64,000 nucleotides of DNA, taken from contig NZ_CP038015.1 in the NCBI RefSeq assembly GCF_004367585.1, positions 1,618,001 to 1,682,000 on the forward strand. The letters are read 5' to 3'. The stretch is from Paenisporosarcina antarctica. GTDB lineage: Bacteria; Bacillota; Bacilli; Bacillales_A; Planococcaceae. The position numbers and the translations under genes were made by a program. Within the stretch, counting starts at the first letter, position 1. The number at the start of each line of letters is the position of its first letter. Of the stretch, positions 4,849 to 29,162 are shown in pieces. Below the pieces are notes generated by a model. That model worked only from the letters and a program-made list of their open reading frames with translations. It ran no database searches and was not told the origin of the DNA.

Positions 4849-5646
4849 TTAAACGGATAATAACGCTTTGTCACTCGTCAACTTTTCACCACGGATACGC
4901 TGAAATTCATCCATTAATTTTGGAATGGTTAATTTCTTCTTCTCCACAGCGTCTATTTCTAAAATGATTTGTCCTTTGTCCATCATAATAAGCCTGTTAC
5001 CTAAGTCTAAAGCTTGTTGCATATTATGAGTAATCATCAATGTTGTGAGCTGATTTTTTTCAACAAGTTCTTTTGTTAAATTGGTAATCAACTCTGCACG
5101 AGAAGGATCAAGTGCAGCAGTATGTTCATCCAGTAGTAAAATATCCGGTTGTGTGAAGGTAGCCATCAACAGTGAAAGAGCTTGTCTTTCTCCTCCTGAA
5201 AGCATTCCTACTTTTGCATTCAAACGGTTTTCAAGGTTTAAATGAAGTGTTTCAAGAGATTCACGGAACAATTCCCGACGTTTCTTGTCCACACCTATTC
5301 GTAAAAGACGTTTTTTGTTCCGTGAATAGGCCATCGCAAGGTTTTCTTCGATTGTCATCGTGGGCGCAGTTCCTGCCATTGGATCTTGAAATACTCTTCC
5401 AATCATCTGAGAACGCTTATATTCAGGCAATTTTGTCACGTTTTTTTTGGCAATTTCAATTTCACCAAAATCGGGAGTAAGCGCGCCGGAAATCATATTC
5501 AACATCGTCGATTTCCCAGCACCATTACTTCCAATTACCGTCATAAAATCACCTGGATTTAACTTAAGATTTATTTGATCTAAAGCAATTTTTTCATCAG
5601 GTGTTGCTTCATTAAATAATTTATTAATCTGGATGAGGTTTAGCAA
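4849..5646 (-). CDS. TrpXYZ-type ABC transporter ATP-binding protein
   Basis: This is the cytoplasmic ATPase of an importer from the family that includes streptococcal TrpXYZ (tryptophan) and relatives. Walker A GSNGAGKST is near residue 38, signature LSGGERQ near 149 and Walker B ILLLDEHTAALDP near 170, where the usual LLDEPT is LLDEHT, a known variant of this COG1101 family. The TTG start at 5646 is supported by AAGGGGGGAG six bases upstream, and it overlaps the permease gene by 23 bases, implying translational coupling. The operon order is binding protein, permease, ATPase. Confidence 0.88.
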   Translation of the reverse strand: MLNLIQINKLFNEATPDEKIALDQINLKLNPGDFMTVIGSNGAGKSTMLNMISGALTPDFGEIEIAKKNVTKLPEYKRSQMIGRVFQDPMAGTAPTMTIEENLAMAYSRNKKRLLRIGVDKKRRELFRESLETLHLNLENRLNAKVGMLSGGERQALSLLMATFTQPDILLLDEHTAALDPSRAELITNLTKELVEKNQLTTLMITHNMQQALDLGNRLIMMDKGQIILEIDAVEKKKLTIPKLMDEFQRIRGEKLTSDKALLSV

Positions 5647-6673
5647 CTGGAGCTCCCCCCTTCGTTCGCGAATGTTGATACTCTGCTAAGCGCTCGGCAT
5701 GCCGTTTAGCTTTTCTATTTTTTTCTCGTTTCTTTTCAAAGTACTGAGGTAAAATCAATGCACCAATTACAATAACGGCAGTAATTAATTTCATGTCTCC
5801 CGTATCAAGGAAGTCTATTCTAAGTGCTAGACCAAGTACAATTCGATAAATAATTGCCCCAGCAATAACAGCAAATGTAGTTCGAACAATAGTTTTGGTA
5901 CCAAATATGGCTTCACCGATAATGACAGATGCCAATCCAATGATGATCATCCCTATTCCCATTCCAATGTCTGCAAACTTAGCATACTGAGCAATCAGTG
6001 CTCCTGAAAAGGCAACCAAGGCATTTGAAAAACCAAGTCCAACAATAATGAGTGTGTCTGTATTAGCCGATAAGCTGCGAATCATTTTTTTATTATCGCC
6101 AGTAGCTCTTATGGCAAGTCCAACTTCAGTTTTCAAGAACCAATCTACAAGAACCTTAATTAGTAAAACGATGATGGTCATAATAAACAAAATACCCCAT
6201 GTGGACGGTAAATATTGAACCCCCATCATACTGAACATATTGTTAATTGCCGTGTCTATTCCAAAAGAACCCCAAAATGATTGGAATTGATTAAACATTG
6301 TTTCGGCATTTAATAAGGGAATATTCGGTCGACCTATGGAATTCTCGGAGGTTAGTCCCATTATTCGTAAATTTATAGAATATAAAGCAATCATCATCAA
6401 TATTCCAGCAAGTAAGGCATTGATCTTCCCTTTTGTATGTAGAAGGCCGGTTACACAACCAGCCAAAAACCCAATAATAACGGCTACTGCTGTAGCTAAC
6501 ATCGGATGATATCCTAAGATAATCATCGTGGCAGCAACTCCAGCTCCTGTTACAAAACTACCATCAACCGTTAAATCTGGAAAATCCAACACTCGAAATG
6601 AGATATACACCCCGAGTGCCATAATTGCATAGATGATTCCTTGCTCTACAGAGCCAAATACAGCTGAAAACAT
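5624..6673 (-). CDS. TrpXYZ-type ABC transporter permease
   Basis: This 349-residue integral membrane protein has about eight hydrophobic segments and ends in a basic cytoplasmic tail (KKREKNRKAKRHAERL). The segment FRVLDFPDLTVDGSF at about residue 27 is characteristic of the COG4120 permeases, which pair with pfam04392 binding proteins. AGGAGGTGA lies at a good distance before the ATG at 6673. It would form the channel for the substrate delivered by the binding lipoproteins of 6692 and 7986; an aromatic amino acid is the best guess from family and neighbours. Confidence 0.88.
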   Translation of the reverse strand: MFSAVFGSVEQGIIYAIMALGVYISFRVLDFPDLTVDGSFVTGAGVAATMIILGYHPMLATAVAVIIGFLAGCVTGLLHTKGKINALLAGILMMIALYSINLRIMGLTSENSIGRPNIPLLNAETMFNQFQSFWGSFGIDTAINNMFSMMGVQYLPSTWGILFIMTIIVLLIKVLVDWFLKTEVGLAIRATGDNKKMIRSLSANTDTLIIVGLGFSNALVAFSGALIAQYAKFADIGMGIGMIIIGLASVIIGEAIFGTKTIVRTTFAVIAGAIIYRIVLGLALRIDFLDTGDMKLITAVIVIGALILPQYFEKKREKNRKAKRHAERLAEYQHSRTKGGAPVAKPHPD

Positions 6674-6691
6674 GTAGAATCACCTCCTGTT

Positions 6692-7684
6692 TTATTCGCT
6701 AAATTCAGCTTTCCACTCGTCCTTGATATCAAGTCCGATAACTGATGCTGTGTCTTTATTCATAGTGAAAATTAATTTTTGTGGAATTTGAACAGGAAGG
6801 TCAGCAGGTTTGCTTTCACCTTTTAGAATTTTTACTGCCATTTCTCCTGCTTCGTATCCGATGTCAAAGTATTCAAATCCGTATGCTGCTAAGGCACCTC
6901 GTTTTACAGAGTCAAATTCGGCAGCCACCATCGGTAGTTTATTATCGTTTGCTACTGAAATGACAGATTCAAGTGCAGAAACAACTGTGTTATCTGTAAT
7001 GATGTAGAAAGAATCTACTTTGCCAATCAATGATTCGGCCGCTTGTTTAACATCTGCAGACGTAGCAACAGACGCTTCAACTACTTCCATATCCATATCT
7101 TTTAGCATTTCTTTAACCGCGTCTACTTGCGCACGAGAGTTTTGCTCTCCTGAGTTAAACACCATTCCAACTTTTTTAGCTCCTAATTCTTCTTTAAGGA
7201 ACTTCATTGTATTTGCGATCGCATCAGGATGACTATCAATCGTACCTGTTATGTTACCGCCCGGCTTTTCCATTGACTCGACTAACTCTGCTCCAACAGC
7301 ATCTGTTACAGATGTGAATACAATCGGAATATCTGAAGTGGCGCTGGCCGCAGCCTGGGCACTTGGTGTTGAATTCGCAAATATTAAATCCACATTAGAG
7401 CTGACTAGGTTAGTTGCAATTGTCGTACTGGCACTTGGATCACCTTGTGCAATTTGGACGTCATATTCTGCGTCAATTCCTGCATCTTCTATCGCTTTTT
7501 GAAAGCCATCATATGCTGCGTCTAAAGAAGGATGTTCGACTATTTGAGTAACCCCAATTTTAAATGTCTTTGTGTCTTCGCTAGATGTATCTTTTTCGGC
7601 TTCATCGTCTCCATCTCCACATGCTGCAAGAAATAGAACAGTACTAAAAAAAACAAGCCCAATTTTCTTCCAATTATTCTTCAT
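6692..7684 (-). CDS. ABC transporter substrate-binding lipoprotein (copy 1)
   Basis: The lipobox LAAC (cysteine at about residue 22) follows a short hydrophobic signal, so the mature protein is lipid-anchored outside the membrane. After an acidic linker come KIGVTQIVEHPSLDAAYDG and TNLVSSNVDLIFANSTPSAQ, typical of the pfam04392 ABC_sub_bind family. It lies 18 bases ahead of its permease. It is a close paralogue of the neighbour at 7986-8966, with long identical stretches (KIGVTQIVEHPSL, IFANSTPSAQA, FNSGEQNSR), so the pair arose by tandem duplication. The ligand is unknown; family members bind Trp or Tyr. Confidence 0.88.
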   Translation of the reverse strand: MKNNWKKIGLVFFSTVLFLAACGDGDDEAEKDTSSEDTKTFKIGVTQIVEHPSLDAAYDGFQKAIEDAGIDAEYDVQIAQGDPSASTTIATNLVSSNVDLIFANSTPSAQAAASATSDIPIVFTSVTDAVGAELVESMEKPGGNITGTIDSHPDAIANTMKFLKEELGAKKVGMVFNSGEQNSRAQVDAVKEMLKDMDMEVVEASVATSADVKQAAESLIGKVDSFYIITDNTVVSALESVISVANDNKLPMVAAEFDSVKRGALAAYGFEYFDIGYEAGEMAVKILKGESKPADLPVQIPQKLIFTMNKDTASVIGLDIKDEWKAEFSE

Positions 7685-7743
7685 TAAATTGTCCCCCTAT
7701 TATTATCTAAGTTCTATTTTGTGAATCTTTGAAACCAAGGAAT

Positions 7744-7776
7744 TTTATATTTCAATATACTATATTGAAATATAAA
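7744..7776. promoter_or_regulatory. 33-base perfect palindrome upstream of the binding-protein operon
   Basis: Sixteen-base perfect arms are centred on 7760 (core TATTTCAATATA, C, then its complement). It lies 60 bases upstream of the copy 1 start codon and about 210 bases beyond the copy 2 stop. It is the only clear structure in this 301-base gap. It could be an operator for the TrpXYZ-type operon or, less likely as it has no G/C-rich stem, a terminator for copy 2. Confidence 0.45.
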
Positions 7777-7985
7777 TTTAGTCTAAAAATTTTAAGAGTT
7801 CTGATAATTTAAGCGTTGAACATGCAGAGTTGCTATAAACCTAAAAGGATTTCAGTACTATCTTCAATCATACATTTATATATTTAGATAAGAAAGAAAA
7901 CTTTTCATATACATTAATAAATATAAAGATAAAGAGATTAGTAGCATAGAGCAAAAATAGTTAAAAACTTTAGAAAATCTCTAAT

Positions 7986-8966
7986 TTATTCACTGAATTC
8001 TGCTTTCCACTCGTCTTTAACTTTTAGCTCAATTGCCTCTACTGTCTCTTTGTTCATAACAAATCTTAATTCTTTAGGAACTTGAACTGGTAATTCGGAC
8101 GGTTTACTACCTTCTTTTAAAATCTTAACAGCCATTAAGCCCGCTTCATATCCAAGATCAAAGTATTCAAAGCCAAATGCAGCTAAACCGCCTCGTTTTA
8201 CTGAATCTAACTCACCAACCATCATTGGTATTTTATTATTTTTAGCTACTAAAACTACAGATTCAAGCGCTGAAACTACTGTGTTGTCTTTAATAATATA
8301 TATTGAGTCAACTTTACCTATTAATGAATCTGCCGCTTGTTTCACTTCTGCCGATGTTGCTACAGAAGCTTCTATAATATTTAGACCCAGTTCATTTTTC
8401 AATTCATTTACTCTATCCACCTGTACACGGGAGTTTTGTTCTCCTGAGTTAAATATAATTCCCACATTTTCTGCACTCAATTCTTCTTTTAGGAACGTCA
8501 AAGTATTCAAAATTACATCGGGATGCAAATCTATTGTACCTGTCACATTCCCTCCTGGACTTTCCATTGAATCAACCAACTCAGCACTTACAGCATCTGT
8601 AACGGAAGTGAAAACGATTGGAATTTCTTGAGTAGCACTAGCTACAGCTTGTGCACTTGGTGTTGAATTTGCAAAAATCAAATCTACTCCAGAATTAACG
8701 AGGTTACTAGCAATTGTAGTGTTCGCACTATTATCATTTTGTGCGTTTTCCACTGTATATTCTACCTCAAGTCCTTCATCTTCGATAGCCTTTTTAAAGC
8801 CATCATACGCGGCATTTAATGATGGGTGTTCTACTATTTGAGTTACACCAATCTTATATTTCTTTGTTTCCCCCGTAGCTTTGTTTTCTCCTCCTTCACC
8901 ACACCCTGCCAGGATTAGCGCAGTACTGAAAAAAACAATCCCAAATTTACCCCAAATATTCTTCAT
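7986..8966 (-). CDS. ABC transporter substrate-binding lipoprotein (copy 2)
   Basis: This 326-residue lipoprotein (lipobox LAGC at about residue 22) is a paralogue of the protein at 6692-7684, in the same pfam04392 family and with the same domain plan. It has its own GGGGG ribosome binding site and is separated from copy 1 by 301 bases, so it is likely a separate transcript or an upstream member sharing the one permease and ATPase. The two copies may have different ligands or expression. It lies between the importer and the phenylalanine dehydrogenase operon on the same strand, which suggests that an aromatic amino acid is the ligand. Confidence 0.87.
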   Translation of the reverse strand: MKNIWGKFGIVFFSTALILAGCGEGGENKATGETKKYKIGVTQIVEHPSLNAAYDGFKKAIEDEGLEVEYTVENAQNDNSANTTIASNLVNSGVDLIFANSTPSAQAVASATQEIPIVFTSVTDAVSAELVDSMESPGGNVTGTIDLHPDVILNTLTFLKEELSAENVGIIFNSGEQNSRVQVDRVNELKNELGLNIIEASVATSAEVKQAADSLIGKVDSIYIIKDNTVVSALESVVLVAKNNKIPMMVGELDSVKRGGLAAFGFEYFDLGYEAGLMAVKILKEGSKPSELPVQVPKELRFVMNKETVEAIELKVKDEWKAEFSE

Positions 8967-9182
8967 TAATTTTCCCCCTGCTAGTTTATAATTCTATGTT
9001 GAAAAAACTTGTTCCCATATTATAATTTATCGTAATATTACACGCGCTTAAATAGTTAGTCAAATAGAGTATGAAAATTTTGTATATTTAGTTTATAAAA
9101 AAGGGGATTTCAGGTATTAGATTAATTGACAATACACGCTAGTAAATAATCCTATTCTTAATTACGTTTCAGCGGAAACTAC

Positions 9183-10628
9183 TTAAATCGATAACAAATC
9201 TATCTTTCTAATTTTGATAGGTCCAGCATGAATTGCTTGTCCAATAAGACCTTCTACAGCTTCAAGTAGTCCTTCATTTAATCCTGGATGCGCGTAAGCA
9301 GGAAATTTTATATCTTCTTCTTTTGCTGCCATTTCTAACAGCTGGACAAAGGAACCCGACATGTCAATTGCACCCTCCCCAATCATGTGAATACCTGCAA
9401 TTATATCGGTAGTTGAATCGGAAACAACTTTAATAAAGCCATCCTTTTTACTTGTAATTGTCGCATAACCGTTGCCTCCAAGAGGGAATTGGCTGACACG
9501 TACTTCCATGCCAGAGTCACGTGCTTTTTGTTCAGTAAGACCAACACAAACAATGGGAGGAATTGTGTGGGCAACAATTGGTAAAAAGGTGAGATCAACT
9601 TCCGGTTTTCCACCTGCAATATATTCTACAGCCGCTTTTCCTTGCTTAATTGCCTTAACCGCTAGGAGAGGACCTTCCGTTACATCACCAATTGCATATA
9701 TGGAAAGAATCGATGATTGCATATTTTTGTCAACCTTAATGAATCCTGCATCCGTTTGTTCTATTTTGAAGCGACTGATTCCTAGTGGTTCTATATTCGC
9801 TTTCCTATTCCCAGAAAAAAGGAGATATGATCCAATTATTTTCTCTTCAGAATTTTTATCGTTTATACAAGTTACAGAAATTGCGTCCTCAGTTTCATTC
9901 GTAGAAATCAATTCAACTACTTTAATCACGTTAATTTTTCGTTTCTTGAATAATCGATTCAATTCCTTATTGATTGATTCATCAAATGGATAGCCTTCTT
10001 TATTATCGAGAAGAATCGTGACTTTTGCACCGAGTGCTGCAAAACTGGAGGCTATTTCAAGAGAGATATAATCATGTCCTTTTACGATAAGATGTTCTGG
10101 CACTTCTTCTAGTTCAAATATTTCATGGGACAATAAGGTCCGTTTTCCATTTACTAATAATTCTGAAGGCGTTTCCTGTGAACTCCCCGTAGCGATGATT
10201 ACCTGTTTAAATACGTAAATGTCAAACTGATGTCCATTTTCCACACCAATTCTGTCTATACCGAGAAATGTAGCTTTTCCTAGGATTACTTCAATTTTGT
10301 TCTCTTTACAAAGACTTTCTACACCAGATCTAAGCCTATCGATCACTGTCGTTTTATAAGAAAGGAGTTTCTTTAAATTGAAGACTTCATCTCCACTACC
10401 AATCCCTATATCACGTAAATGAGCTGTATCTGATAGCTTGGATGCAGCGTGAGTAAAAACTTTTGAAGGAATACAACCTTTGTTTAAACAAACACCACCC
10501 ATATCTGCTTGTTCAATTAATGTGACTGAAAGCCCGAGCTGGGCACCACGTATGGCGGCAGAGTAACCACCGGGTCCACCCCCGATGATAATGAGATCTC
10601 TTTCCTGAATGATTTCCCCAACAACCAT
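9183..10628 (-). CDS. lpdA: Dihydrolipoyl dehydrogenase (E3) of the 2-oxo acid dehydrogenase complex
   Basis: This flavoprotein reoxidises the dihydrolipoyl arm of the E2 subunit using NAD. It shows the FAD motif GGGPGG at residues 16-21, the redox disulfide CLNKGC with cysteines 47 and 52, a GDV FAD segment (AIGDVTEGPLLA) and a C-terminal catalytic His region AHPGLNE, where most relatives have HPTLSE. The NAD domain glycine motif near residue 180 is unusual (HLIVKGHDYISLEIAS instead of GGGYIGLE), so cofactor binding may be altered. It is the last gene of the operon, one base after E2, which marks it as dedicated to this complex. Confidence 0.9.
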   Translation of the reverse strand: MVVGEIIQERDLIIIGGGPGGYSAAIRGAQLGLSVTLIEQADMGGVCLNKGCIPSKVFTHAASKLSDTAHLRDIGIGSGDEVFNLKKLLSYKTTVIDRLRSGVESLCKENKIEVILGKATFLGIDRIGVENGHQFDIYVFKQVIIATGSSQETPSELLVNGKRTLLSHEIFELEEVPEHLIVKGHDYISLEIASSFAALGAKVTILLDNKEGYPFDESINKELNRLFKKRKINVIKVVELISTNETEDAISVTCINDKNSEEKIIGSYLLFSGNRKANIEPLGISRFKIEQTDAGFIKVDKNMQSSILSIYAIGDVTEGPLLAVKAIKQGKAAVEYIAGGKPEVDLTFLPIVAHTIPPIVCVGLTEQKARDSGMEVRVSQFPLGGNGYATITSKKDGFIKVVSDSTTDIIAGIHMIGEGAIDMSGSFVQLLEMAAKEEDIKFPAYAHPGLNEGLLEAVEGLIGQAIHAGPIKIRKIDLLSI

Positions 10629-10629
10629 A

Positions 10630-11850
10630 TTAAATCATCTCCATCATCAGTTTGTGTGGGTGTTCAATCAGACTGGCAAAACGGTTTGTAAATGCAACAG
10701 CTGTAGCTCCGTCTGCAACTCTGTGGTCAAATGCCATGGAAAGTGTCATGATATGACCGATAACGATTTCATCTTGGTCATTGACAATCGGTTGTTTTTT
10801 TGTCTTATGAAAAGCAATTATAGCTGTTTCTGGATAGTTGATAATTGGTGTCGCACCGGTACTGCCTAGTGGACCAACATTGCTCATAGTAAATGTACTA
10901 TGTTGCATTTCGAAAGGCTTCAATTTCCCAGCTTTCGCTTTCTTTGTCAACCATTTGACTTGTTCATTAATTTCTCTGATTGATTTCTTGTCCGAATCAT
11001 GGATAACCGGGACAAGTAGGCCATTGTCAGTATTAGTTGCTAAACCAATATGATAATTCTTTTTAAGTAAGATGAGGTCATTTTCTTCATCAAGTTCAGC
11101 ATTGAAAATCGGGAAATCTTTTAATGAAATAACAAGTGCTTTTATGAGAAATGCAGAAACACTTATTGATTCACCTGACGCTTTTAATTGTTCACGTATT
11201 TTAAATAGATTCGACATATTTACTTCATCAAAATGCGTAACATGTGGAATGGTAAATAGTGATTTGGTCATTTTTTGAGCAATTTTCTTACGAATGCCTC
11301 TGAAAGGAATTTCATCAGGAGTTTCTTTCTTGATTGTTATTTGCTGCACTTCCGCAATTGGTTCATTCTCCACTTGCTCCGATTTTAGGAAACGATATAC
11401 ATCTTCTTCAGATACTCTACCTGACAAATCTGAAGCACGAACATCATCAATACTAATATTGTTGTCACGTGCAATTTTACGTGTGTAGGGTGTAGCGAGT
11501 ACCCGGTGAAAAGTATTTAAGGAAGATTTCCCACTTTTTTCACTTGGTAAGATAGCTTTAATGTAAGGATTATGATTCTCTTCAGTTTGAGTTGGTTGTT
11601 TTGCTTCAGAGTTGTTATCTGCCTTGATGTAAATAAGGCTTGTTCCAACTTGGACAGTTTCGCCAGGATTAATAACAATTTTTGTCACTACACCCGAACA
11701 AGGCGAAGAAAGTTCTGCAATCATTTTGTCTGTTTGCACCTCCACAAGTGGTTGATCCGTTTTTATTCGATCACCAACCTTTACCAGGTATTGAACAATT
11801 TCTCCTTCGGTCATTCCTTCACCGATATCATGCAATTTTACTTCAAGCAT
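10630..11850 (-). CDS. 2-oxo acid dehydrogenase E2, dihydrolipoamide acyltransferase
   Basis: The core subunit carries one N-terminal lipoyl domain (lipoyl lysine 42 in TDKMIAELSS), a peripheral-subunit-binding domain at about residues 120-155 (ATPYTRKIARDNNISIDDV) and a catalytic acyltransferase domain ending in DHRVADGA with the active-site histidine. It transfers the acyl group from E1 to CoA. A single lipoyl domain is common in branched-chain and acetoin E2 and unlike the multi-lipoyl PDH of some bacteria. The context next to phenylalanine dehydrogenase suggests phenylpyruvate, giving phenylacetyl-CoA, as substrate; sequence alone does not prove this. Confidence 0.9.
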   Translation of the reverse strand: MLEVKLHDIGEGMTEGEIVQYLVKVGDRIKTDQPLVEVQTDKMIAELSSPCSGVVTKIVINPGETVQVGTSLIYIKADNNSEAKQPTQTEENHNPYIKAILPSEKSGKSSLNTFHRVLATPYTRKIARDNNISIDDVRASDLSGRVSEEDVYRFLKSEQVENEPIAEVQQITIKKETPDEIPFRGIRKKIAQKMTKSLFTIPHVTHFDEVNMSNLFKIREQLKASGESISVSAFLIKALVISLKDFPIFNAELDEENDLILLKKNYHIGLATNTDNGLLVPVIHDSDKKSIREINEQVKWLTKKAKAGKLKPFEMQHSTFTMSNVGPLGSTGATPIINYPETAIIAFHKTKKQPIVNDQDEIVIGHIMTLSMAFDHRVADGATAVAFTNRFASLIEHPHKLMMEMI

Positions 11851-11862
11851 TGCATTTCCTCC

Positions 11863-12882
11863 TTAAAAATGAACAACTTTTTCAATTCCTTTTAGTACAC
11901 GGGCGGGTGTAGGAAGATAATGTTCTTCTAATGAAAAGAATGGTACCGGTACATCAAACCCTGTCACTCGTTCAATCGGAGCACGTAAATATAGGAAAGA
12001 TGTATCGTTTATGATAGAAATGATGTCATTGCCAAGTCCACCAGTATTATGTGCCTCGTGAACGATGACCGCTCTTGTGGTCTTTTGCACAGACTGAGAG
12101 AGTATATCTCGATCAATTGGATAAAGTGTACGAAGATCTATAATTTCACAACTAATTCCTTGTTGTACTGCCTGTTCGGCTGCTTTCTCCGCAATTGTAA
12201 CCATAGCCCCCCATGCAATAAGTGTTACATCCGTACCTTCACGTACAATTTTCCCTTTACCAATTTCTACGGTGTATTTTCCGACCGGTACTTCTTCTCT
12301 CTTTGAACGGTAATTTCTCATCGTTTCTAAGACAAGTACCGGATCGGGATCTTCCATTGCTGCAATTAATAATCCTTTCGCATCATAGGGACTAGAAGGA
12401 CAGACTACTTTGATGCCAGGCATGTGTGTGAATAATATTTCCGTACTATCCGAATGGATTTCAGGAGCGCGAATTCCAGCTCCATATGGTGCACGAATGA
12501 CCATCGGTACGGTGAAATGAGACATCGATCGTGTCCGAATTCGTGAAACATGTGTCATAATTTGTTCGTATGCAGGATAAATAAAACCTAAAAACTGTAT
12601 TTCTACAACCGGTCTGAATCCGTTTACGGCTAATCCAATCGATGTACCAATAATGCCCGCTTCAGAAAGAGGTGTATCGACTACACGATCATTACCAAAC
12701 TTTTCCTGAAGTCCTTCTGTCGCACGGAATACTCCACCGTTTTTACCAATGTCTTCTCCAAGTATGATGGTTCGATTATCCTCTTCAAGCATAATTCTCA
12801 TTCCATCATTAATTGCTTGAATCATCGTCATCTGTTTAGTCGTTTCGTTTTTTTCATTCGACTCTATCAAGTGGGTCGTCAT
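11863..12882 (-). CDS. 2-oxo acid dehydrogenase E1 component, beta subunit
   Basis: This 339-residue protein pairs with the alpha subunit to form the thiamine diphosphate-dependent decarboxylase. Recognisable segments are ILGEDIGKNGGVFRATEGL (about residue 40), DTPLSEAGIIGTSIG (about 72) and the C-terminal transketolase domain with VHEAHNTGGLG. Its ATG overlaps the alpha-subunit stop codon in an ATGA arrangement, so the two are translationally coupled and made in equal amounts. The sequence is of the general PDH/BCKDH/acetoin type and does not fix the substrate. Confidence 0.9.
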   Translation of the reverse strand: MTTHLIESNEKNETTKQMTMIQAINDGMRIMLEEDNRTIILGEDIGKNGGVFRATEGLQEKFGNDRVVDTPLSEAGIIGTSIGLAVNGFRPVVEIQFLGFIYPAYEQIMTHVSRIRTRSMSHFTVPMVIRAPYGAGIRAPEIHSDSTEILFTHMPGIKVVCPSSPYDAKGLLIAAMEDPDPVLVLETMRNYRSKREEVPVGKYTVEIGKGKIVREGTDVTLIAWGAMVTIAEKAAEQAVQQGISCEIIDLRTLYPIDRDILSQSVQKTTRAVIVHEAHNTGGLGNDIISIINDTSFLYLRAPIERVTGFDVPVPFFSLEEHYLPTPARVLKGIEKVVHF

Positions 12883-13940
12883 TTAGCTTTCCCCCTTAAA
12901 TGTGTAAGATAGGATTCTTTTTGTTCAGCAAGGTGAGCCGGCATCACTGCATATACATGATCGAAAATATCGTCCACGACGGGAGGGGGAAACTGTTCCA
13001 TTCCTTCTACAGCTGCTTCGATTTCATTATTTATTTTTTTCTTCACTTCTTTTATCCATTTTTCATCCCAGTAGCCATAATTTTTCATAAACATTTCTAA
13101 CCGTGAAAGCGGGTCGACAATATTCATTCCTTGTTCGTTTGGACGATACTTAGATGGATCATCTGCTGTAGTGTGTGCACCCGTCCTCCAGGTGACCGCT
13201 TCTATTAGAGTTGGTCCATTCCCACTTCTAGCGTAATCAAATGCTTTTTTCGTTTCAAAATACACGATAAAACAATCGTTACCGTCAATTCGAATTCCTG
13301 GCATGTCATAGGCAACTGATTTTTGTGCAATGGTTGCTGAATTCATCTGTTTTTCAATGGGAAGCGAAATGGCATAACCATTGTTCTGGTTAAAAAACAC
13401 GACAGGTACTTTGAACACACTCGCAAAATTCAAGCCTTCGTGAAAGTCACCTTCTGATGTTGCGCCGTCCCCAAAGTATGCAATGGTTGCATTTTTTGTT
13501 CCTTTTCTCTTTTCAGCCCATGCGGCACCAGTAGCATGAGGTAGTTGAGTAGCTATAGGCACCGCGGGTGGGAATATATTTTTGCCTTCGGGTGGGACAC
13601 AACCTTCTACACGTCCATTCCAGTACAAAAGCGCCCTTACCATATCGGCTCCGTACGTCAACGTTGCTCCGTGATCACGGTATGTTGGGAAAATCCAGTC
13701 ATTCGGTCCAAGAGCAAGCGCACTGCCAACTTGTGAAGCTTCCTGTCCCTCAAAAGGAGCATAAGTTCCGAGACGACCTTGTCTTTGCAAATTAATTGCT
13801 TTTCTGTCAAATGTACGAATTCGCATCATATTGAAATAAAATTCTTTAACCAATTTCTCATCAATTTGTTTTTCATAGGTTGAATCAATTATGAATCCTT
13901 TATCATCTATAATTTTTTTAATCGGATAGTCAAGTTCCAT
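12879..13940 (-). CDS. 2-oxo acid dehydrogenase E1 component, alpha subunit
   Basis: The alpha subunit binds thiamine diphosphate through the motif GDGATSEGDFHEGLNFAS (about residues 165-185) closing in NQNN. Other hallmarks are TYAPFEGQEASQVGSA and the phosphorylation-loop-like TWRTGAHTTADDPSKYR. It decarboxylates the 2-oxo acid and passes the acyl unit to the lipoyl arm. The ATG at 13940 is eight bases from AGGAGG, better than the GTG two codons earlier. It directly follows phenylalanine dehydrogenase by 21 bases, so the product of that enzyme, phenylpyruvate, is the likely substrate. Confidence 0.9.
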   Translation of the reverse strand: MELDYPIKKIIDDKGFIIDSTYEKQIDEKLVKEFYFNMMRIRTFDRKAINLQRQGRLGTYAPFEGQEASQVGSALALGPNDWIFPTYRDHGATLTYGADMVRALLYWNGRVEGCVPPEGKNIFPPAVPIATQLPHATGAAWAEKRKGTKNATIAYFGDGATSEGDFHEGLNFASVFKVPVVFFNQNNGYAISLPIEKQMNSATIAQKSVAYDMPGIRIDGNDCFIVYFETKKAFDYARSGNGPTLIEAVTWRTGAHTTADDPSKYRPNEQGMNIVDPLSRLEMFMKNYGYWDEKWIKEVKKKINNEIEAAVEGMEQFPPPVVDDIFDHVYAVMPAHLAEQKESYLTHLRGKAK

Positions 13941-13961
13941 ATTCACTGCCTCCTATCATGA

Positions 13962-15104
13962 TTAATTGCGAAATGACCATTTAGGTTTCACTGACGCTGT
14001 GTAGAAACCATTCCGTTTCCCTCTGACCTCTATTTTCTTCTCACACATTTTATTTGCTGATTCCATTGTCGACAATCCACTAATTTCAGCTTGTTTGAAT
14101 ACTTCCAATATGGCATCATAAATATGTTTTGTTTTAGCAAGAACACGTTCATGATTAGTGCCGTACAATTCATCGGCCACCTGGATAAGCCCTCCGGAAT
14201 TAACAATATAATCTGGTGCGTAAAGTATGCCTTTTTCTTGAAGCATTTTCCCATGGCTTTCATGTAGTAACTGATTGTTAGCAGAACCTGCAATTGCTTT
14301 TACTTGAAATTGAGCAATTGTATTATCATTTATGATTCCACCAAAGGCACAAGGTACGAACATATCCGCTTGTTGTGAATAAATATCTTCTTTTGCAACT
14401 ATTTTTACTGTTCCTAAAGTTTTTGTTGCTATTTCTTCAATCGCCTTAAGACTCTCTTCATTAATATCAGATACGATTAGGTGAGCACCTTCTTCAAGCA
14501 AGCTACTTGCAATTTTAAATCCAACCTTACCAAGACCTTGTACAGCGTATACAAGTCCACCCAAATCATCTTTTCCATAAAGTACTTGATTGGTTGCTTT
14601 TATTCCGTATAAAACACCAGCAGCTGTTGGTATTGATGAATCCCCGCCTCCTCCATATGCTTCCGGTAAACCGTTCACAAAGTTTGTCTCTTTCATGGCA
14701 TGGATAAAATCATCCATATTCGTTCCCATATCAGTTCCGGTAAAAAATCTGCCTCCTAATGAATTTACAAATTGACCGAATGCACGGAATAATTCAGGTG
14801 TTTTGTCTGTTGTGGGATCCCCAATAATAACTGCTTTTCCTCCACCAAAATCAACATCAGCAGCAGCACACTTATAAGTCATTCCCTTTGATAGTCGTAA
14901 AACATCTTCCAATGCTTCATCAACACTAGTGTATGGTTGCATACGACATCCTCCCAGTGCTGGTCCAAGAGTCGTATTATGAATGGCTATAATTGCACGC
15001 AAACCTGTTGAAGGATCATTACAAAAAACTACTTGCTCATGTTCACTCATTTTGTCGAAAAGTTCAAAATCTCTTGTGATTGACAATTTTTCTGTTATTT
15101 TCAT
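13962..15104 (-). CDS. pdh: Phenylalanine dehydrogenase
   Basis: This NAD-dependent enzyme reversibly deaminates L-phenylalanine to phenylpyruvate and ammonia. It has the Glu/Leu/Phe/Val dehydrogenase fold: catalytic lysine in [18 protein letters not shown] (about residues 77-95), the [11 protein letters not shown] loop and the NAD motif GLGKVG near 200. It is assigned to phenylalanine rather than leucine dehydrogenase because the C-terminal pocket reads [13 protein letters not shown] and the N-terminus [12 protein letters not shown], as I recall from the Sporosarcina and Lysinibacillus enzymes, where leucine dehydrogenases have INVADE; length (380) also fits. It is the second gene of the operon. 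A leucine or broader substrate range cannot be ruled out. Confidence 0.85.
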
Positions 15105-15128
15105 TTAAAATGCCCCCCTGAATGTAGC

Positions 15129-15539
15129 TTATTTATTTTTTATTAAGAAAGTAGCTTGTTTCAATTTCTCCGTAATCTTTTCTTTAGGTAATATTACTTG
15201 CTTCACTTCACCTTTTCCGATTACTCCTAACTGATTTTCCGCCAGTATTTTTGTCAAGACGATATTGTCACGAAGTTCAACTAAAGTTGCTGTTAATGTA
15301 ACGGTGGAACCAAGTGGAGATGCAGCTACATGTTTAAGTTGTACTGAGGCACCCATACCTTCTTCATGACTCTCCAAAAATGGTAGAATAATTTTACGAG
15401 AAACCCACTCCATGTGATACGTCATCGCTACGGTTGAATAGACAGGATGGACAACTTTTCCTTCAAACGCAGCATACATATCCTCTGTCACAATGATTTC
15501 GATTGATTCTTTTCTACCTACTTCCATTCCCGGTTTCAT
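15129..15539 (-). CDS. FlK-type hotdog thioesterase family protein
   Basis: This 136-residue protein resembles the fluoroacetyl-CoA thioesterase-like family: VVHPVYSTVAMTYHMEWVSRKI followed by a catalytic Glu/His-type region (HEEGMGASVQLKHVAASPLG) and a GKGEVKQVI strand. It is the first gene of the operon, with GAGGTG five bases before its ATG, and is followed by phenylalanine dehydrogenase 24 bases on. It may rescue CoA trapped as dead-end aromatic or ring-opened thioesters, as proposed for PaaI. The substrate is not shown by the sequence. Confidence 0.75.
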   Translation of the reverse strand: MKPGMEVGRKESIEIIVTEDMYAAFEGKVVHPVYSTVAMTYHMEWVSRKIILPFLESHEEGMGASVQLKHVAASPLGSTVTLTATLVELRDNIVLTKILAENQLGVIGKGEVKQVILPKEKITEKLKQATFLIKNK

Positions 15540-15782: not shown

Positions 15783-15896
15783 TTTAATATATGATATTCC
15801 CTTTTCGCATAACACTATTCAAACGTAATATTAACAAACCGTAATATCATAGTCAACAAAATATTCAGAAGAATCTTTATTTGATCAAATATAAGA

Positions 15897-17603: not shown

Positions 17604-18482
17604 TCACTCAATTATAAAGGGATGATTATCTGCATCATACGACTTGTCTTTCCTTCTCAGGTCATTATCTTCTTGGAAAACCATTTCGAAAAACTGACTA
17701 GCCGATTGCGCTAGCAACTTATAATATGACTCGAACAAAAGAGCAGCATGATTACCGTTCCATATTTCCGGTAGCAATTCTTTAGGTAGCCCTGGATCAG
17801 AAAATAGGAACTTCCGGTATTCATGAACGAGGTTTGTTCTTTCTACGAAACACTCTGCATTCGTCATTTGTCCTTTATTCATCATACTATGATGGACAAT
17901 GAATTGATTGCTATACGTCGATATGAATTCTTGATATCTTTCAGCAATTTCTTGAAGTGGCCAACTCTTTTCAACGAGTGCTCTGTCCGCTTGTGGTCCT
18001 TTATATTCAGATACGAAGAAATCTACATATGATTGAATACCGTACTTCTCGATAAGAAGGTTAACTTCCTTTTCAAGATTATTAGGTGAAATCCAGCAAC
18101 CATTTGAAAAGCTACCGAAACCACTCCATAAAAGTTCTTTACGAAGTTCATCGCGAATCTGCCTTTTTTCTTCGGGAATTGTATACATAAGAATACGCCA
18201 CTTACCATCCCAATCGTTTGGCATCAATTTGAAAATACGGATTGCCGCTTCTTCAATTCGAGTTTCTCCACGAGGGGTCATGAAATAATAGCTTTTATTC
18301 CCCTTTTTCTCGGAATCAAGCCATCCTTGCTTCATCATTCTAGAAACAGCTACACGAACAGATTGTTCATTATGACCAAACTCTTTCAATAAATGAATTA
18401 AACTCCCAATCCAAATCTTGTTTCCATAATGACGAATATAGTCGCCATATATTGTAAAAATCATTGATTGTGTATTCGCCAT
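17604..18482 (-). CDS. paaX: PaaX family transcriptional regulator of phenylacetate degradation
   Basis: In known systems PaaX represses the paa genes and is released by phenylacetyl-CoA. The protein opens with a winged-helix domain: YGDYIRHYGNKIWIGSL and the recognition segment SVRVAVSRMMKQGWLDSEK (about residues 40-60), followed by the PaaX central and C-terminal domains with WDGKWRILMYTIPEEKR. It is the last gene of the operon, about 90 bases after a hydratase gene, and that gap holds a perfect palindrome (18517-18534), suggesting its own regulated promoter. The ribosome binding site is weak, consistent with low repressor levels. Confidence 0.9.
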   Translation of the reverse strand: MANTQSMIFTIYGDYIRHYGNKIWIGSLIHLLKEFGHNEQSVRVAVSRMMKQGWLDSEKKGNKSYYFMTPRGETRIEEAAIRIFKLMPNDWDGKWRILMYTIPEEKRQIRDELRKELLWSGFGSFSNGCWISPNNLEKEVNLLIEKYGIQSYVDFFVSEYKGPQADRALVEKSWPLQEIAERYQEFISTYSNQFIVHHSMMNKGQMTNAECFVERTNLVHEYRKFLFSDPGLPKELLPEIWNGNHAALLFESYYKLLAQSASQFFEMVFQEDNDLRRKDKSYDADNHPFIIE

Positions 18483-18572: not shown

Positions 18573-19349
18573 TTAATTACCTGTAAAAATCGGATCTCTT
18601 TTTTCACTGAATGCATGAAGCGCTTCCATTCGATCTTCGGTTGGGATAGTTAATTCGTAAGCTTTCGATTCAATTGCAAGTCCAGTGTGCAGGTCGGTGT
18701 TCATGCCTTGCGTAATCGCATACTTTGCTTGCGTAATTGCAACTGGTCCATTTTTCATGATATTGAATGCAAGCTGTTCACAGGTAACAAGAAGATTTTC
18801 TTTCTTCACTACTTTCAAAACGACTCCAAGATCCAAACCTTCTTCTGCTGTGAACCTTCTTGCGGTGAAAATTAGCTCTTTCGCCTTCATCTCTCCAACA
18901 AGTCTAGGGAGACGCTGCGTTCCCCCAGCTCCCGGAATGATTGCCCAACTTGTTTCAGTCAGACCCATTTTCACTCCTTCTGCTGCTATTGAGAAATCAC
19001 AAGCAATCATCAATTCAAAGCCGCCACCTAACGCATAGCCGTTGACTGCGGCTATTGTTGGTTGAGGGAGACTTGCAATGCCGTTGAATACGTCTCTGAT
19101 TTCTTTCACATTTCTTCGAACTTCAGTTTCATTTAAAGTTTTCCGCTCTTTCAAATCAGCTCCAGCACTAAATGATTTATCTCCTGCTCCAGTAAAAATG
19201 ACCACTTTAACTTCTGAATCAAGAGAAATCGAGTCAGTCACTTCCTTAAGCTCATGAAGTGTTTGGTAATTAAAGCAATTTAATGATTCTTCTCGGTTAA
19301 TGGTCACATAGGCAATGTTGTTTTGCTTTCTATATAAAATAGTTGTCAT
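18573..19349 (-). CDS. paaF: Enoyl-CoA hydratase, PaaF-like
   Basis: A crotonase-fold enzyme (258 residues). Both catalytic glutamates are present: in GGGFELMIACDF (about residue 109) and in GLTETSWAIIPGAGGTQRL (about 129), so it can hydrate enoyl-CoA. The segment resembles AUH-type hydratases. In the pathway it would hydrate 2,3-dehydroadipyl-CoA before PaaH and PaaJ, or serve in ring opening. Which of the two full hydratases in this operon is the true PaaF is not settled. AAAAGGAG precedes the ATG, and a stem-loop of about 55 bases separates it from paaJ. Confidence 0.75.
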   Translation of the reverse strand: MTTILYRKQNNIAYVTINREESLNCFNYQTLHELKEVTDSISLDSEVKVVIFTGAGDKSFSAGADLKERKTLNETEVRRNVKEIRDVFNGIASLPQPTIAAVNGYALGGGFELMIACDFSIAAEGVKMGLTETSWAIIPGAGGTQRLPRLVGEMKAKELIFTARRFTAEEGLDLGVVLKVVKKENLLVTCEQLAFNIMKNGPVAITQAKYAITQGMNTDLHTGLAIESKAYELTIPTEDRMEALHAFSEKRDPIFTGN

Positions 19350-19379
19350 ATATTTAGTCTCCTTTTCGAATGGAAAAAC

Positions 19380-19434
19380 TGTCCTACTCCTGCCACAGAT
19401 CTACTTAAAAATGTCTGGGCTTGAGGGACAGCCT
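19380..19434 (-). other. Intercistronic stem-loop within the paa operon
   Basis: CTGTCC near 19380 and GGACAG near 19429 close a long imperfect stem with further pairing (CTC with GAG, and GCC-CAGA with TCTGGGC). It lacks a T-run in the direction of transcription, so it may be a processing or mRNA stability element between paaJ and paaF. Confidence 0.4.
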
Positions 19435-19445
19435 TTATATAATGA

Positions 19446-20651
19446 TTATTCGTTTACATTCTCAATAATTGCAGCAATTCCCTGACCAACTCCGATACAC
19501 ATCGTTGCTAGACCGTATTTAACATTTTGTTTTTTCATTTCATATAGAAGTGTCGTTAAAATACGTGCGCCACTAGCACCAAGAGGATGTCCAAACGCAA
19601 TTGCTCCACCGTTTACATTTACGATTTTGTCGTCTAATTCTAACTGTTGTATACATTCAAGTGATTGTGAAGCAAAGGCTTCATTCAATTCCACAAGACC
19701 AAGGTCATTTGTCGTGAGTCCTGCACGTTCCAGTACTTTTCTAGAAGCGAAAATTGGACCAAGACCCATTACATCTGGTTCGAGTCCAGCTGTTGCTCCA
19801 GCGACGTATCGAGCTAGTGGTTTGAAATTCAATTCTTTTGCTTTTTGGGCACTCATAAGGAGTAAAGCAGACGCACCATCATTCACGCCAGAAGCGTTAC
19901 CTGCTGTAACGGTGCCACCATCAAATATTGGTTTCAGCTTAGCAAGTTTCTCAAGCGTTGTATCAGGACGAGGATGTTCATCTTGATCTACAGTAATTTT
20001 GTTACCTTTCCGGTCTATATAGACCACCGGGACGATTTCTTCAGCGAATCGATTTTCATCCATCGCTTTTTTTGCTAGTTGTTGACTTTTATAAGCAAAT
20101 AAATCTTGATTTTCTCTAGTTATATTATAACGCTGCGCAACCGTTTCAGCTGTTTGTGGCATAGAATCTGTGCCATACATCTCTTTTAGCTTATTATTGG
20201 TAAATCGCCAGCCGATTGTTGTATCTTGTAGGTCCATATTGCCTCGTCCAAAGGCTTTATCAGGCTTAGCCATAACGAGCGGCGCACGCGTCATACTTTC
20301 TGTTCCTCCAGCAATGTAAATATCGCCATCGCCTACTGCGATAGCTCTTGCTGCATACATTACGGCGTCGAGTCCTGAACCGCAAAGACGATTAATAGTG
20401 GTCCCTGCCACTTCGACAGGAAGACCAGCGAGCAATGCTGACATTCGCGCAACATTGCGATTATCTTCTCCTGCTTGATTTGCATTTCCAAATATAACTT
20501 CTTCAATTTCACTTGTCAGAAGGTTTGGATTCCGTTCGACAAGAGCCTTAATAACGACAGCTCCAAGGTCATCGGGACGTACATCTTTTAACGCGCCATT
20601 ATATCTTCCGATTGGTGTACGAACAGCATCTACTATAACGACCTCTATCAT
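19446..20651 (-). CDS. paaJ: Acetyl-CoA acyltransferase, 3-oxoadipyl-CoA thiolase
   Basis: A 401-residue thiolase with the nucleophilic cysteine in RLCGSGLDAVMYA (about residue 88), the catalytic His in GGAIAFGHPLGASGARI (about 350) and the second cysteine in CIGVGQG (about 386). In the pathway it cleaves 3-oxo-5,6-dehydrosuberyl-CoA and 3-oxoadipyl-CoA, releasing acetyl-CoA and finally succinyl-CoA. The start codon overlaps the paaH stop by four bases, so the two are coupled. Sequence alone does not distinguish it from a short-chain beta-ketothiolase, but the operon does. Confidence 0.88.
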   Translation of the reverse strand: MIEVVIVDAVRTPIGRYNGALKDVRPDDLGAVVIKALVERNPNLLTSEIEEVIFGNANQAGEDNRNVARMSALLAGLPVEVAGTTINRLCGSGLDAVMYAARAIAVGDGDIYIAGGTESMTRAPLVMAKPDKAFGRGNMDLQDTTIGWRFTNNKLKEMYGTDSMPQTAETVAQRYNITRENQDLFAYKSQQLAKKAMDENRFAEEIVPVVYIDRKGNKITVDQDEHPRPDTTLEKLAKLKPIFDGGTVTAGNASGVNDGASALLLMSAQKAKELNFKPLARYVAGATAGLEPDVMGLGPIFASRKVLERAGLTTNDLGLVELNEAFASQSLECIQQLELDDKIVNVNGGAIAFGHPLGASGARILTTLLYEMKKQNVKYGLATMCIGVGQGIAAIIENVNE

Positions 20652-21517
20652 TTCGTAACCAACTCTTCTATTGTATAGTCATATACACCTTTGCCGCTTT
20701 TTCGTCCTAGGCGTCCAGCTTTTACATATTGTTCTAGAAGTGGCGCAGGACGATATTTTTCTCCAAGTTTTTCATGTAAGTATTTCAAGTTACTTAAACG
20801 TGTGTCGAGTCCGACGAGATCCACAAGTTCGAATGGTCCCATTGGATAATTTAAACCTAACTTAATTGCTTTATCTATTTCTTCTGGCGTTCCTAGGCCT
20901 TCTTGGAGCATGTAAAAGGCTTCGTTACCAACAAGCGCACTTATTCGGCTTGTGACGAATCCTGGAAATTCATTAATAACGACGGTTTCTTTGCCCATTT
21001 TCTCAGCTACTTCTCTAATTCTTTGGGCTGTCTCATCGCTCGTTTCCAAGCCCCTTACAATTTCTACAAGAGGCATTTTATGTACAGGATTAAAAAAATG
21101 CATTGCAATTGTTTTATCTGGTCGTTTACCAAAAGAAGCGATTTCAGTCGGGCTCATCGTTGATGTATTTGTTGCAAAATAACATTCAGAAGATGCATGT
21201 TCTTCAATTGTTTCCATCACTTGCTTTTTTATAGCCATTTTTTCAGGGACAGCTTCAATAATTAAATCTGCGTACCCAGCTGCTTTGGGTAAGTCGCTTT
21301 CATAACTTAAATTCTGGCGAGCTTGGTTGACTTGATCTACTGAAATCTTTCCACGCGCAAGACCCTTTTCGAAAATATTATCAATTTCTTGCTTTGCATT
21401 TTGCAATGCAGATTCATTAATGTCAACAACTGTCATAGTGTACCCACCAACTGCGCCGACATATGCTATTCCCCTGCCCATCACTCCTGAACCGACGACA
21501 ACGATATGTTTAATCAT
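20648..21517 (-). CDS. paaH: 3-hydroxyacyl-CoA dehydrogenase
   Basis: The NAD-binding Rossmann motif VVGSGVMGRGIAYVGA is at the N-terminus, followed by HFFNPVHKMPLVE (about residue 138, catalytic His) and the C-terminal helical domain with GFVTSRI and YPMGPFELVDLVGLD. It oxidises 3-hydroxyadipyl-CoA to 3-oxoadipyl-CoA. AAGGAGG stands before its ATG, and it is separated from the aldehyde dehydrogenase gene by a hairpin (21550-21580). The strong ribosome binding site and coupled paaJ suggest robust expression. Confidence 0.9.
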   Translation of the reverse strand: MIKHIVVVGSGVMGRGIAYVGAVGGYTMTVVDINESALQNAKQEIDNIFEKGLARGKISVDQVNQARQNLSYESDLPKAAGYADLIIEAVPEKMAIKKQVMETIEEHASSECYFATNTSTMSPTEIASFGKRPDKTIAMHFFNPVHKMPLVEIVRGLETSDETAQRIREVAEKMGKETVVINEFPGFVTSRISALVGNEAFYMLQEGLGTPEEIDKAIKLGLNYPMGPFELVDLVGLDTRLSNLKYLHEKLGEKYRPAPLLEQYVKAGRLGRKSGKGVYDYTIEELVTK

Positions 21518-21549
21518 TATTTCACTCCTCCTTATTATAATGAAAGAAT

Positions 21550-21580
21550 ACGGACAGAGGTTTTAAAAAACCCTGTCCGT
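21550..21580 (-). other. Intercistronic hairpin between aldehyde dehydrogenase and paaH
   Basis: ACGGACAG-A-GGTTTT pairs with AAAACC-C-TGTCCGT around a two-base loop. It lacks a clear T-run after the stem in the direction of transcription, so partial termination or mRNA processing is as likely as full termination. Confidence 0.45.
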
Positions 21581-21595
21581 AACTTCATTTATTTA

Positions 21596-23119
21596 TTACA
21601 GTCCAAAGGGATTCAGAGGACGGCTACCGTAGTATGATAGTATGCTTTTCGTTTCTGAGTAGAGATCAAGTGTTTCAATACACAACTCGCGTCCGAATCC
21701 AGATTGCTTATAGCCACCGAATGGCGTTCCAGGAAATGCAGAAAATGGGCAGTTTATCATGACGATTCCTGCTTGTATCTGATTTGCAACACGTGTCGCA
21801 CGTGCCCCGTCTTTTGACCAAACAGCTGAACCTAAGCCAAATTCTGTATCGTTTGCTAATCGAATTGCTTCTTTTTCATCTTTAAACTTCATAACAACGA
21901 CTACTGGTCCGAAAATCTCTTCTTTAACAATTGACATGTCATGATTAACGTTTGAGATGATTGTCGGCTCGTACCAGTATCCATTTTCGTAGCCTTCAGG
22001 TTTTGCAACATTACCGCCTGCAAGGATTTCTGCTCCTTCTTTCTTAGCGGATTGAACATAACCGTCAATTGTATCGAGTTGCCCTTGATCGATAATTGCA
22101 CCCATATGTGTTGTTTTATCAAATGGGTTGCCTAACTGTAATTTTTTTGTTTTTTCTACAAACTTGCTCATGAATTCATCGTAAATATCTTCATGGACGT
22201 ATAACCGTGAACGAGCTTCACATGATTGACCTGAGTTGTAGAAAATTCCAAATAAAGAGCCATCAACTGCAGCATCGATATCCGCATCTTCAAATACGAG
22301 ACTCGGTGATTTACCGCCAAGTTCAAGTGTGACTCGTTTTAACGTTTGAGAAGCTTTGCCCATGATGTCTTTCCCGATAGGAGTTGAACCTGTAAATGCC
22401 ACTTTATCTACTTTTGGATGCTCAACTAAAAAGTTTCCTACATCAGCACCAGAGCCAGGAATAACGTTTACTACACCTGCAGGTACACCTGCTTCAAGAC
22501 AAATTTCTCCCAGGATAATAGCCGTTAAAGGAGTGAGAGATGCCGGTTTAACAATAACAGAACATCCTACCGCAATAGCAGGTGCCACTTTCCAAGCAGC
22601 CATCATGAGCGGATAGTTCCACGGAATGATTTGGGCGCAAACGCCTACGGGCTCTTTTTCAGTGTAGTTGTGAAATTGACCAGGTACGTTGTTTACTGTT
22701 CCACGATGCCCAACGATGGCGCCTGCATAAAACTCGAAATCTTCAATAGCTTGTGTGACTTGACCTTGTGCTGCATGAAGAGATTTACCAGTATCTAGTA
22801 TTTCCAATTCAACGATTTCGTTGAAGCGAGTACGCATAATAGCGGAAATTTTATTCAATACTTGTGCACGTCGGCCAATCGGGTACTTCTTCCATTTACC
22901 GTTATCAAACGCATCACGAGCCGCTGCTACTGCATTATTTGCATCTTCTTTTGATGCTTTTGCGACTTCAGCGATCAGTTCACCAGTTGCTGGATTATAT
23001 GTTTTAATTGTTTCACCTGTACTACTTTTCACTTTTTCTCCATTAATAATTAAATGATAAAATTCACGTTTCGTCGATTCTTGCTCAATTTTATTTTCTC
23101 TAGTTACTGTCATATTCAT
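21596..23119 (-). CDS. Aldehyde dehydrogenase of the paa operon
   Basis: A 507-residue NAD(P)-dependent aldehyde dehydrogenase, with the catalytic Glu in LELGGKSPSLVFEDAD (about residue 275) and Cys in FYNSGQSCEARSRLY (about 309), plus the EEIFGPVV cofactor motif. In this operon it most likely does the oxidation carried out by the N-terminal half of E. coli PaaZ (the aldehyde formed on ring opening of oxepin-CoA). Phenylacetaldehyde dehydrogenase is a possible alternative. There is no hydratase domain in this protein. The start could be 23113 rather than 23119, because the GGGGGAG site is closer to the first ATG than usual. Confidence 0.85.
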   Translation of the reverse strand: MNMTVTRENKIEQESTKREFYHLIINGEKVKSSTGETIKTYNPATGELIAEVAKASKEDANNAVAAARDAFDNGKWKKYPIGRRAQVLNKISAIMRTRFNEIVELEILDTGKSLHAAQGQVTQAIEDFEFYAGAIVGHRGTVNNVPGQFHNYTEKEPVGVCAQIIPWNYPLMMAAWKVAPAIAVGCSVIVKPASLTPLTAIILGEICLEAGVPAGVVNVIPGSGADVGNFLVEHPKVDKVAFTGSTPIGKDIMGKASQTLKRVTLELGGKSPSLVFEDADIDAAVDGSLFGIFYNSGQSCEARSRLYVHEDIYDEFMSKFVEKTKKLQLGNPFDKTTHMGAIIDQGQLDTIDGYVQSAKKEGAEILAGGNVAKPEGYENGYWYEPTIISNVNHDMSIVKEEIFGPVVVVMKFKDEKEAIRLANDTEFGLGSAVWSKDGARATRVANQIQAGIVMINCPFSAFPGTPFGGYKQSGFGRELCIETLDLYSETKSILSYYGSRPLNPFGL

Positions 23120-23127
23120 TACTCCCC

Positions 23128-23901: not shown

Positions 23902-23913
23902 TCAAGAACCTCC

Positions 23914-24690: not shown

Positions 24691-24992
24691 TAAGCATCTT
24701 CACCAATCATTAATGTGACTAGATTCCCTGCAAATCCCATCAAATCCTTGCCAGAAGCTTTCCCTTCAGCTGAGCGTAAACCTTGCTGCAATGCCTCCAA
24801 GTTATCGTAAGTCATCTCACATGTAAGGTAATATTTCCCTTCTCCACCCATTGGAGATCCTGTAACTTTAGTCACTTTCATTTCACGAAGTCCAGGAATT
24901 TTCGCTGTTAGGGGTCCATGTACATTAAAATAGTGATTATCAAATTCCTCTTTGTTTTCAGGGTGTTTATATAATGCGATTAATTTAGCCAT
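24690..24992 (-). CDS. EthD family protein in the paa operon
   Basis: A 100-residue protein of the EthD family, small dimeric alpha-beta barrels (ferredoxin-like fold). Visible marks are the N-terminal LIALYKHPENKEEFDNHYFN with HGPLTAKIPGL, the usual EthD pattern. Relatives accompany ring degradation or ether catabolism without a well-defined catalytic role. GAGGAGA stands before the ATG, and its stop overlaps the next gene's start. Its place between paaD and the hydratase suggests a role with the ring-opening steps, perhaps in protecting or channelling reactive intermediates. Confidence 0.8.
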   Translation of the reverse strand: MAKLIALYKHPENKEEFDNHYFNVHGPLTAKIPGLREMKVTKVTGSPMGGEGKYYLTCEMTYDNLEALQQGLRSAEGKASGKDLMGFAGNLVTLMIGEDA

Positions 24993-25010
24993 TTTACTAT
25001 TCTCCTCACT

Positions 25011-25511: not shown

Positions 25512-25536
25512 TACGATACTCCTTTCCATATACTGA

Positions 25537-26690: not shown

Positions 26691-26709
26691 TATTCTCTGA
26701 CTCCTTTCT

Positions 26710-27855: not shown

Positions 27856-29162
<1,307 letters not shown>

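Follow-up and report, generated by a model that had tools for sequence, protein, structure and literature searches.

Conversion of aryl-pyruvates to aryl-acetyl-CoA is known from the indolepyruvate and aryl-pyruvate ferredoxin oxidoreductases, ferredoxin-linked iron-sulfur enzymes found mostly in anaerobes. For complexes containing a lipoyl dehydrogenase, the textbook rule is that electrons are passed to NAD+. PglB and PglC of Streptomyces pristinaespiralis, a pyruvate dehydrogenase (PDH)-like E1 alpha and beta pair, have been proposed to convert phenylpyruvate to phenylacetyl-CoA in the phenylglycine pathway of pristinamycin biosynthesis (PMC7089894), and the 2008 genome paper of Exiguobacterium sibiricum remarks that PDH genes adjoining that for phenylalanine dehydrogenase could provide a way to phenylacetate (PMC2615787). 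Among flavin-disulfide reductases, ferredoxin-dependent flavin thioredoxin reductases are unable to use NADPH or lack its motifs (PMC12796991, PMC10880999), and human dihydrolipoamide dehydrogenase (E3) with the cofactor-binding-site substitution G194C keeps lipoamide dehydrogenase activity (PMC6776566).

The window, the whole stretch of 64,000 nucleotides of Paenisporosarcina antarctica DNA that was analysed, contains six minus-strand ORFs at 9183-15539 that very probably form a catabolic phenylalanine-to-phenylacetyl-CoA module with a dedicated phenylpyruvate dehydrogenase complex. The original prediction had read the complex as converting phenylpyruvate to phenylacetyl-CoA, and gene context, a separate E1 clade and complementarity with the phenylacetate-CoA ligase PaaK strongly support that reading. 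The operon comprises:

15129-15539, minus strand: hotdog thioesterase of FlK type, a member of the fluoroacetyl-CoA thioesterase family, encoded by the leading gene of the operon (Pfam PF22636, 114.6 bits)
13962-15104, minus strand: L-phenylalanine dehydrogenase, PheDH (active-site residues, identity to a Bacillus badius locus)
12879-13946, minus strand: E1alpha of a 2-oxo acid dehydrogenase, GTG start with an in-frame ATG at 13940 (TPP motif, own clade)
11863-12882, minus strand: E1beta (catalytic His143, NCBIfam, BLAST)
10630-11850, minus strand: E2 acyltransferase with one lipoyl domain, an E3-binding domain and a catalytic domain (Pfam)
9183-10628, minus strand: E3, a dihydrolipoamide dehydrogenase homologue without canonical NAD motif (fold, motifs)

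ORFs and domain searches confirmed the predicted arrangement of all six genes in one operon. From the thioesterase to E3, successive genes are separated by 24 and 15 nt, then overlap by 4 nt, and are again separated by 12 and 1 nt; the 21 bases originally given between PheDH and E1alpha hold if the ATG at 13940 is the start, the distance from the GTG start being 15 nt. NCBIfam and Pfam searches named the subunits of the complex concordantly. The TPP motif GDG...NN was present in 78/78 E1alpha sequences, catalytic His143 in 77/77 E1beta sequences and the lipoyl Lys42 together with the DHRxxDG motif in 76/76 E2 sequences; the E1 TPP motif and catalytic His and the E2 lipoyl Lys, E3-binding domain and HxxxDG motif that mark a 2-oxo acid dehydrogenase complex are thus all found.

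Genes for phenylacetate degradation and a putative importer flank the operon:

17604-18482, minus strand: PaaX-family repressor (TIGR02277, 328.1 bits, cut-off 264.6)
18573-29177, minus strand: paa cluster (ORFs and BLAST against related paa clusters)
35146-36474, minus strand: PaaK phenylacetate-CoA ligase (TIGR02155, 613 bits, just under the curated cut-off of 646; conserved paa context)
4849-8966, minus strand: ABC importer located downstream of E3, with a tandem pair of substrate-binding proteins (PF04392); many related loci have it in the same position

The paa cluster, which with PaaX lies just upstream of the operon, encodes enoyl-CoA hydratases, a thiolase, a 3-hydroxyacyl-CoA dehydrogenase, an aldehyde dehydrogenase, PaaD, PaaC, PaaB (26346-26690), PaaA (26710-27669), a ferredoxin and an FNR-like protein. 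No paaE was recognisable in the window's paa cluster. At 27856-29177 (minus strand), just upstream of paaA, a single-cluster ferredoxin ORF overlaps the FNR-like gene, and since this pair recurs in related paa clusters, ferredoxin and FNR probably supply PaaABC with electrons. The pair was also considered as a specific partner of an NAD-less E3, an idea rejected on its presence in paa genomes without the E3 or the complex. The two PF04392 proteins (6692-7684 and 7986-8966, minus strand) are tandem paralogues and possibly serve aromatic amino acid import. Only two copies of TTGACT-N17-TAATAT with a TACG after it are present in the window (15828-15856 and 9035-9063, minus strand), against an expectation of 0.02. 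One lies upstream of the operon and the other upstream of the ABC-transporter gene, and a similar element precedes the operon in L008 and L025; a shared promoter or operator is possible. An Rfam search of 4-37.5 kb gave no match. Matches to TIGR03394 (phenylpyruvate decarboxylase) in the genome were all below cut-off (92-113 bits), indicating no clear Ehrlich-type route.

PheDH was compared with the catalytic and pocket residue set of the B. badius enzyme (PMC8543943). The window protein matches 13 of these 14 residues (V144 being N) and the protein of B. badius NBRC 15713 locus L020 matches all 14. Catalytic K78, K90, D125 and N276 are present, as is the aromatic pocket of F86, G123 and L306, where the leucine dehydrogenase (LeuDH) of the same genome has L, A and V. 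Identity is 93% to PheDH of Paenisporosarcina sp. TG20, 77% to the L020 protein and 48% to the genome's own LeuDH. The best scores in a PDB comparison were against leucine dehydrogenases; assignment as PheDH rather than LeuDH follows from the 13 identical residues, which include F86, G123 and L306.

Of 80 named Bacillales loci, almost all have E1alpha and E1beta genes directly downstream of PheDH, among them that of B. badius, from which a studied PheDH comes. This recurrence excludes chance; the exceptions are an incomplete locus (L078) and L079, in which E1alpha is 2 kb away. The thioesterase gene precedes PheDH in most related loci, and tandem PheDH pairs flank it in several Paenisporosarcina-type genomes (L010:7246 and 9001; also G025, G029 and G069). 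Genes of the paa pathway adjoin PheDH-E1 in most loci and an ABC importer with a PF04392 binding protein adjoins the complex in many. A Thalassobacillus locus has homogentisate-pathway neighbours (HPD-, flavin reductase-, FAH- and HmgA-like, as read from sequence) and a Neobacillus locus an amino-acid permease. In 54 loci (L079 and 53 others) E2 is followed by E3, which several genera lack. In Ornithinibacillus L028 and L030, PheDH-E1alpha-E1beta stand without E2 or E3 at the locus, so that this E1 must use an E2 from elsewhere or be decaying.

Co-occurrence was scored in 120 genomes of the order, representing 17 genera. E1alpha orthologues shared 56-100% identity, PDH paralogues all fell at or below 42% and a few E1s of a third kind at 45-46%. 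An E1alpha orthologue was found in 18 genomes, PheDH in 15, all within those 18 (p ~2e-16, ignoring shared ancestry within one family), and the E3 orthologue in 13. PaaA, of the phenylacetyl-CoA epoxidase, occurred in 20 genomes, 17 of them among the 18 with E1alpha (Fisher p ~1e-16, without correction for ancestry); both states occur within genera g3, g6 and g7. Counter-cases were two relatives with E1-E2 and paa genes and no PheDH, and one with E1-E2 genes but neither PheDH nor paa genes.

PaaK was detected in 9 of the 20 paa genomes (TIGR02155, 613-642 bits) and was absent from 11 (best score 48 bits). Every one of these eleven carries PheDH, E1alpha and E3, and PaaK is present in each of the three paa genomes lacking E1alpha; all paa genomes among the 120 have at least one of the two sources of phenylacetyl-CoA. 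Cross-tabulation of complex against PaaK gives small numbers (11/0 vs 6/3, p 0.07), and the weight therefore rests on the eleven PaaK-less genomes. E3 is kept in 11/11 of these vs 2/6 of those that have both PaaK and the complex (p 0.006). The original proposal that the complex bypasses PaaK thus finds a counterpart in eleven related genomes, but the window itself keeps a PaaK gene.

The most surprising part of the locus is the loss of the NAD motif in E3, which affects the following segment:

9993-10085, minus strand: degenerate NAD-binding beta-alpha-beta of E3, residues ~182-212, VKGHDYISLE...VTILLD

The unusual glycine motif noted in the original prediction is real and family-wide. In 54 sequences (the window and 53 loci), the FAD GxGxxG motif, the CxxxxC redox disulfide and the catalytic HP...E show no variation, and Lys56 and Glu191, a pair close to the flavin, are retained. 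At the NAD site, GxGxx[GAS] occurs in 0/54, the second glycine being Asp in 49; the ribose-binding acid at position 207 is likewise found in none, with an acid at 208 in 30. In 53/54, Tyr replaces the His that stands two positions ahead of the catalytic His. The protein therefore has the FAD, disulfide and His-Glu features of a dihydrolipoamide dehydrogenase and lacks the NAD motif and the acid at the end of beta2. Canonical NAD motif and acid were kept in 21/21 PDH-E3 controls. The NAD domain is the best conserved part of PDH-E3 (0.85 vs 0.81-0.84) and, in the same set of genomes, the least conserved part of the operon E3 (0.61 vs 0.71-0.78). An AlphaFold2 model predicts an intact E3 fold (pLDDT 90.9), with a Z score of 47.6 to an E3 in structure comparison. 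L079, with an E1alpha 52% identical, has an E3 with a canonical NAD motif. A divergent E1alpha-E1beta-E2-E3 cluster in G109 (L160:6716-11371) also encodes an E3 without the NAD motif (GADPYALE), in a genome where neither PheDH nor PaaA had a match. The pattern GxDY[IF]ALE, which misses the window's own ISLE, had one match in 398 Bacillota genomes, few Bacillales being among those drawn.

A different electron acceptor may serve this E3, or it may bind NAD in a novel manner. That it is a dihydrolipoamide dehydrogenase working without NAD(P), its electrons passing to O2, menaquinone, ferredoxin or flavodoxin, has in our estimate just short of an even chance. A real possibility, though one we would not back over its negation, is that the NAD site has been remodelled and E3 still reduces NAD+ or NADP+, perhaps with lower affinity. 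In the predicted structure the domain retains an intact Rossmann beta-alpha-beta, the Lys56-Glu191 pair is retained, the acid stands one residue later in 30 sequences, and the activity of human G194C indicates that motif loss alone is no proof of lost NAD use; against this, both GxGxx[GAS] and the acid at its usual place are missing throughout, and the Asp replacing the second glycine in 49 sequences would presumably point towards the pyrophosphate. Decay of E3, its work being done by the Lpd of PDH, appears unlikely: its absence from several genera and the presence of a canonical PDH-E3 in 21/21 genomes searched are in keeping with decay, but the invariant catalytic motifs, a dN/dS of 0.08-0.23 over whole genes, which indicates purifying selection and argues against a pseudogene, and retention in all PaaK-less paa genomes are not. 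With a canonical PDH-E3 in every genome searched, NADH-linked reoxidation by that enzyme could still occur, and presumably has to in genomes lacking the dedicated E3.

The usual branched-chain complex had been predicted to lie elsewhere, and a bcd-buk-lpdV-bkdAA-bkdAB-bkdB cluster was indeed found apart in the same genome (C1:1.455 Mb, L097), as was PDH (C1:2.16 Mb, L096). Immediately after the bkd cluster come two genes resembling methylmalonyl-CoA mutase (L097:7340-11138). The operon E1alpha is 39% identical to that of the genome's PDH and 35% to its BkdA. In an E1alpha phylogeny, the check put forward with the original prediction, which covered PheDH-linked, PDH and BKD sequences and the third kind of E1 (~45% identical), the PheDH-linked sequences form their own clade (fork support 85/99), apart from the other three; the deep branching order of the tree is unsure because the BKD and L079 branches are long. 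E1alpha therefore falls outside the Bkd and PDH clades, and close orthology to the classical bkd complex, which the original prediction had named as counting against it, is not observed. A broad-specificity dehydrogenase of aromatic and branched-chain 2-oxo acids, with phenylpyruvate as one of several substrates, is quite improbable: branched-chain complexes share part of the E1alpha pattern (YRDxG, PxxTQLPHA) as well as the architecture, and both kinds of keto acid are bulky, but the genome has a complete branched-chain cluster with a distant BkdA, and the complex co-occurs with PheDH and paa genes. A second pyruvate or acetoin dehydrogenase only incidentally adjacent to PheDH is very improbable, since, although E1alpha exceeds the TIGR03181 pyruvate dehydrogenase cut-off (460.6 vs 411.4 bits), PDH is encoded elsewhere, the PheDH adjacency and paa co-occurrence are repeated across genera, and the complex is present in every PaaK-less paa genome.

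For a dedicated phenylpyruvate dehydrogenase complex, we infer the following substrate, product and electron path. PheDH would deaminate phenylalanine to phenylpyruvate, which E1alpha/beta with thiamine diphosphate would decarboxylate, loading the resulting phenylacetyl moiety onto the E2 lipoyl arm. From that arm E2 would transfer the moiety to CoA, and phenylacetyl-CoA would enter the adjacent paa ring-opening pathway with no need for PaaK. E3 would reoxidise dihydrolipoyl-E2 via its own disulfide and FAD; given the family-wide loss of the dinucleotide-binding loop, electrons may exit otherwise (to O2, a quinone, ferredoxin or flavodoxin). Alternatively, the NAD-linked Lpd of PDH would complete reoxidation, as is presumably the case in species without the operon E3. 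Such a complex would explain the supply of phenylacetyl-CoA in bacteria that have the paa pathway and no PaaK, would amount to a dedicated aerobic route starting from phenylalanine, and would correct annotations naming these genes pyruvate dehydrogenase. If E3 does work without NAD(P), the complex would be a 2-oxo acid dehydrogenase that makes no NADH, breaking the rule that electrons pass to NAD+.

Relative to a literature search with most subscription journals outside its scope, in which no phenylpyruvate dehydrogenase forming phenylacetyl-CoA was found, the Bacillales synteny, the PaaK complementarity and the NAD-motif loss are new. The aryl-pyruvate ferredoxin oxidoreductases carry out the same overall type of reaction but are unrelated to lipoyl complexes. 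The Bkd complex shares the E1alpha-E1beta-E2-E3 architecture, but belongs to another cluster and another E1 branch. PglB/PglC are alike by description, as a PDH-like E1 pair with a proposed conversion of phenylpyruvate to phenylacetyl-CoA, but are biosynthetic, with only the E1 genes in their operon and no PheDH. The same operon as that in the window is present in Exiguobacterium flavidum (L057); the E. sibiricum remark itself gives phenylacetate as the product and carries no comparative or E3 analysis. Relative to known dihydrolipoamide dehydrogenases, the operon E3 has the full fold, FAD motif, CxxxxC and HP...E but lacks the canonical NAD motif and ribose acid. The ferredoxin-dependent thioredoxin reductases offer a precedent for such nucleotide-site loss, although they are of the thioredoxin reductase type whereas the operon enzyme is of the E3 type.
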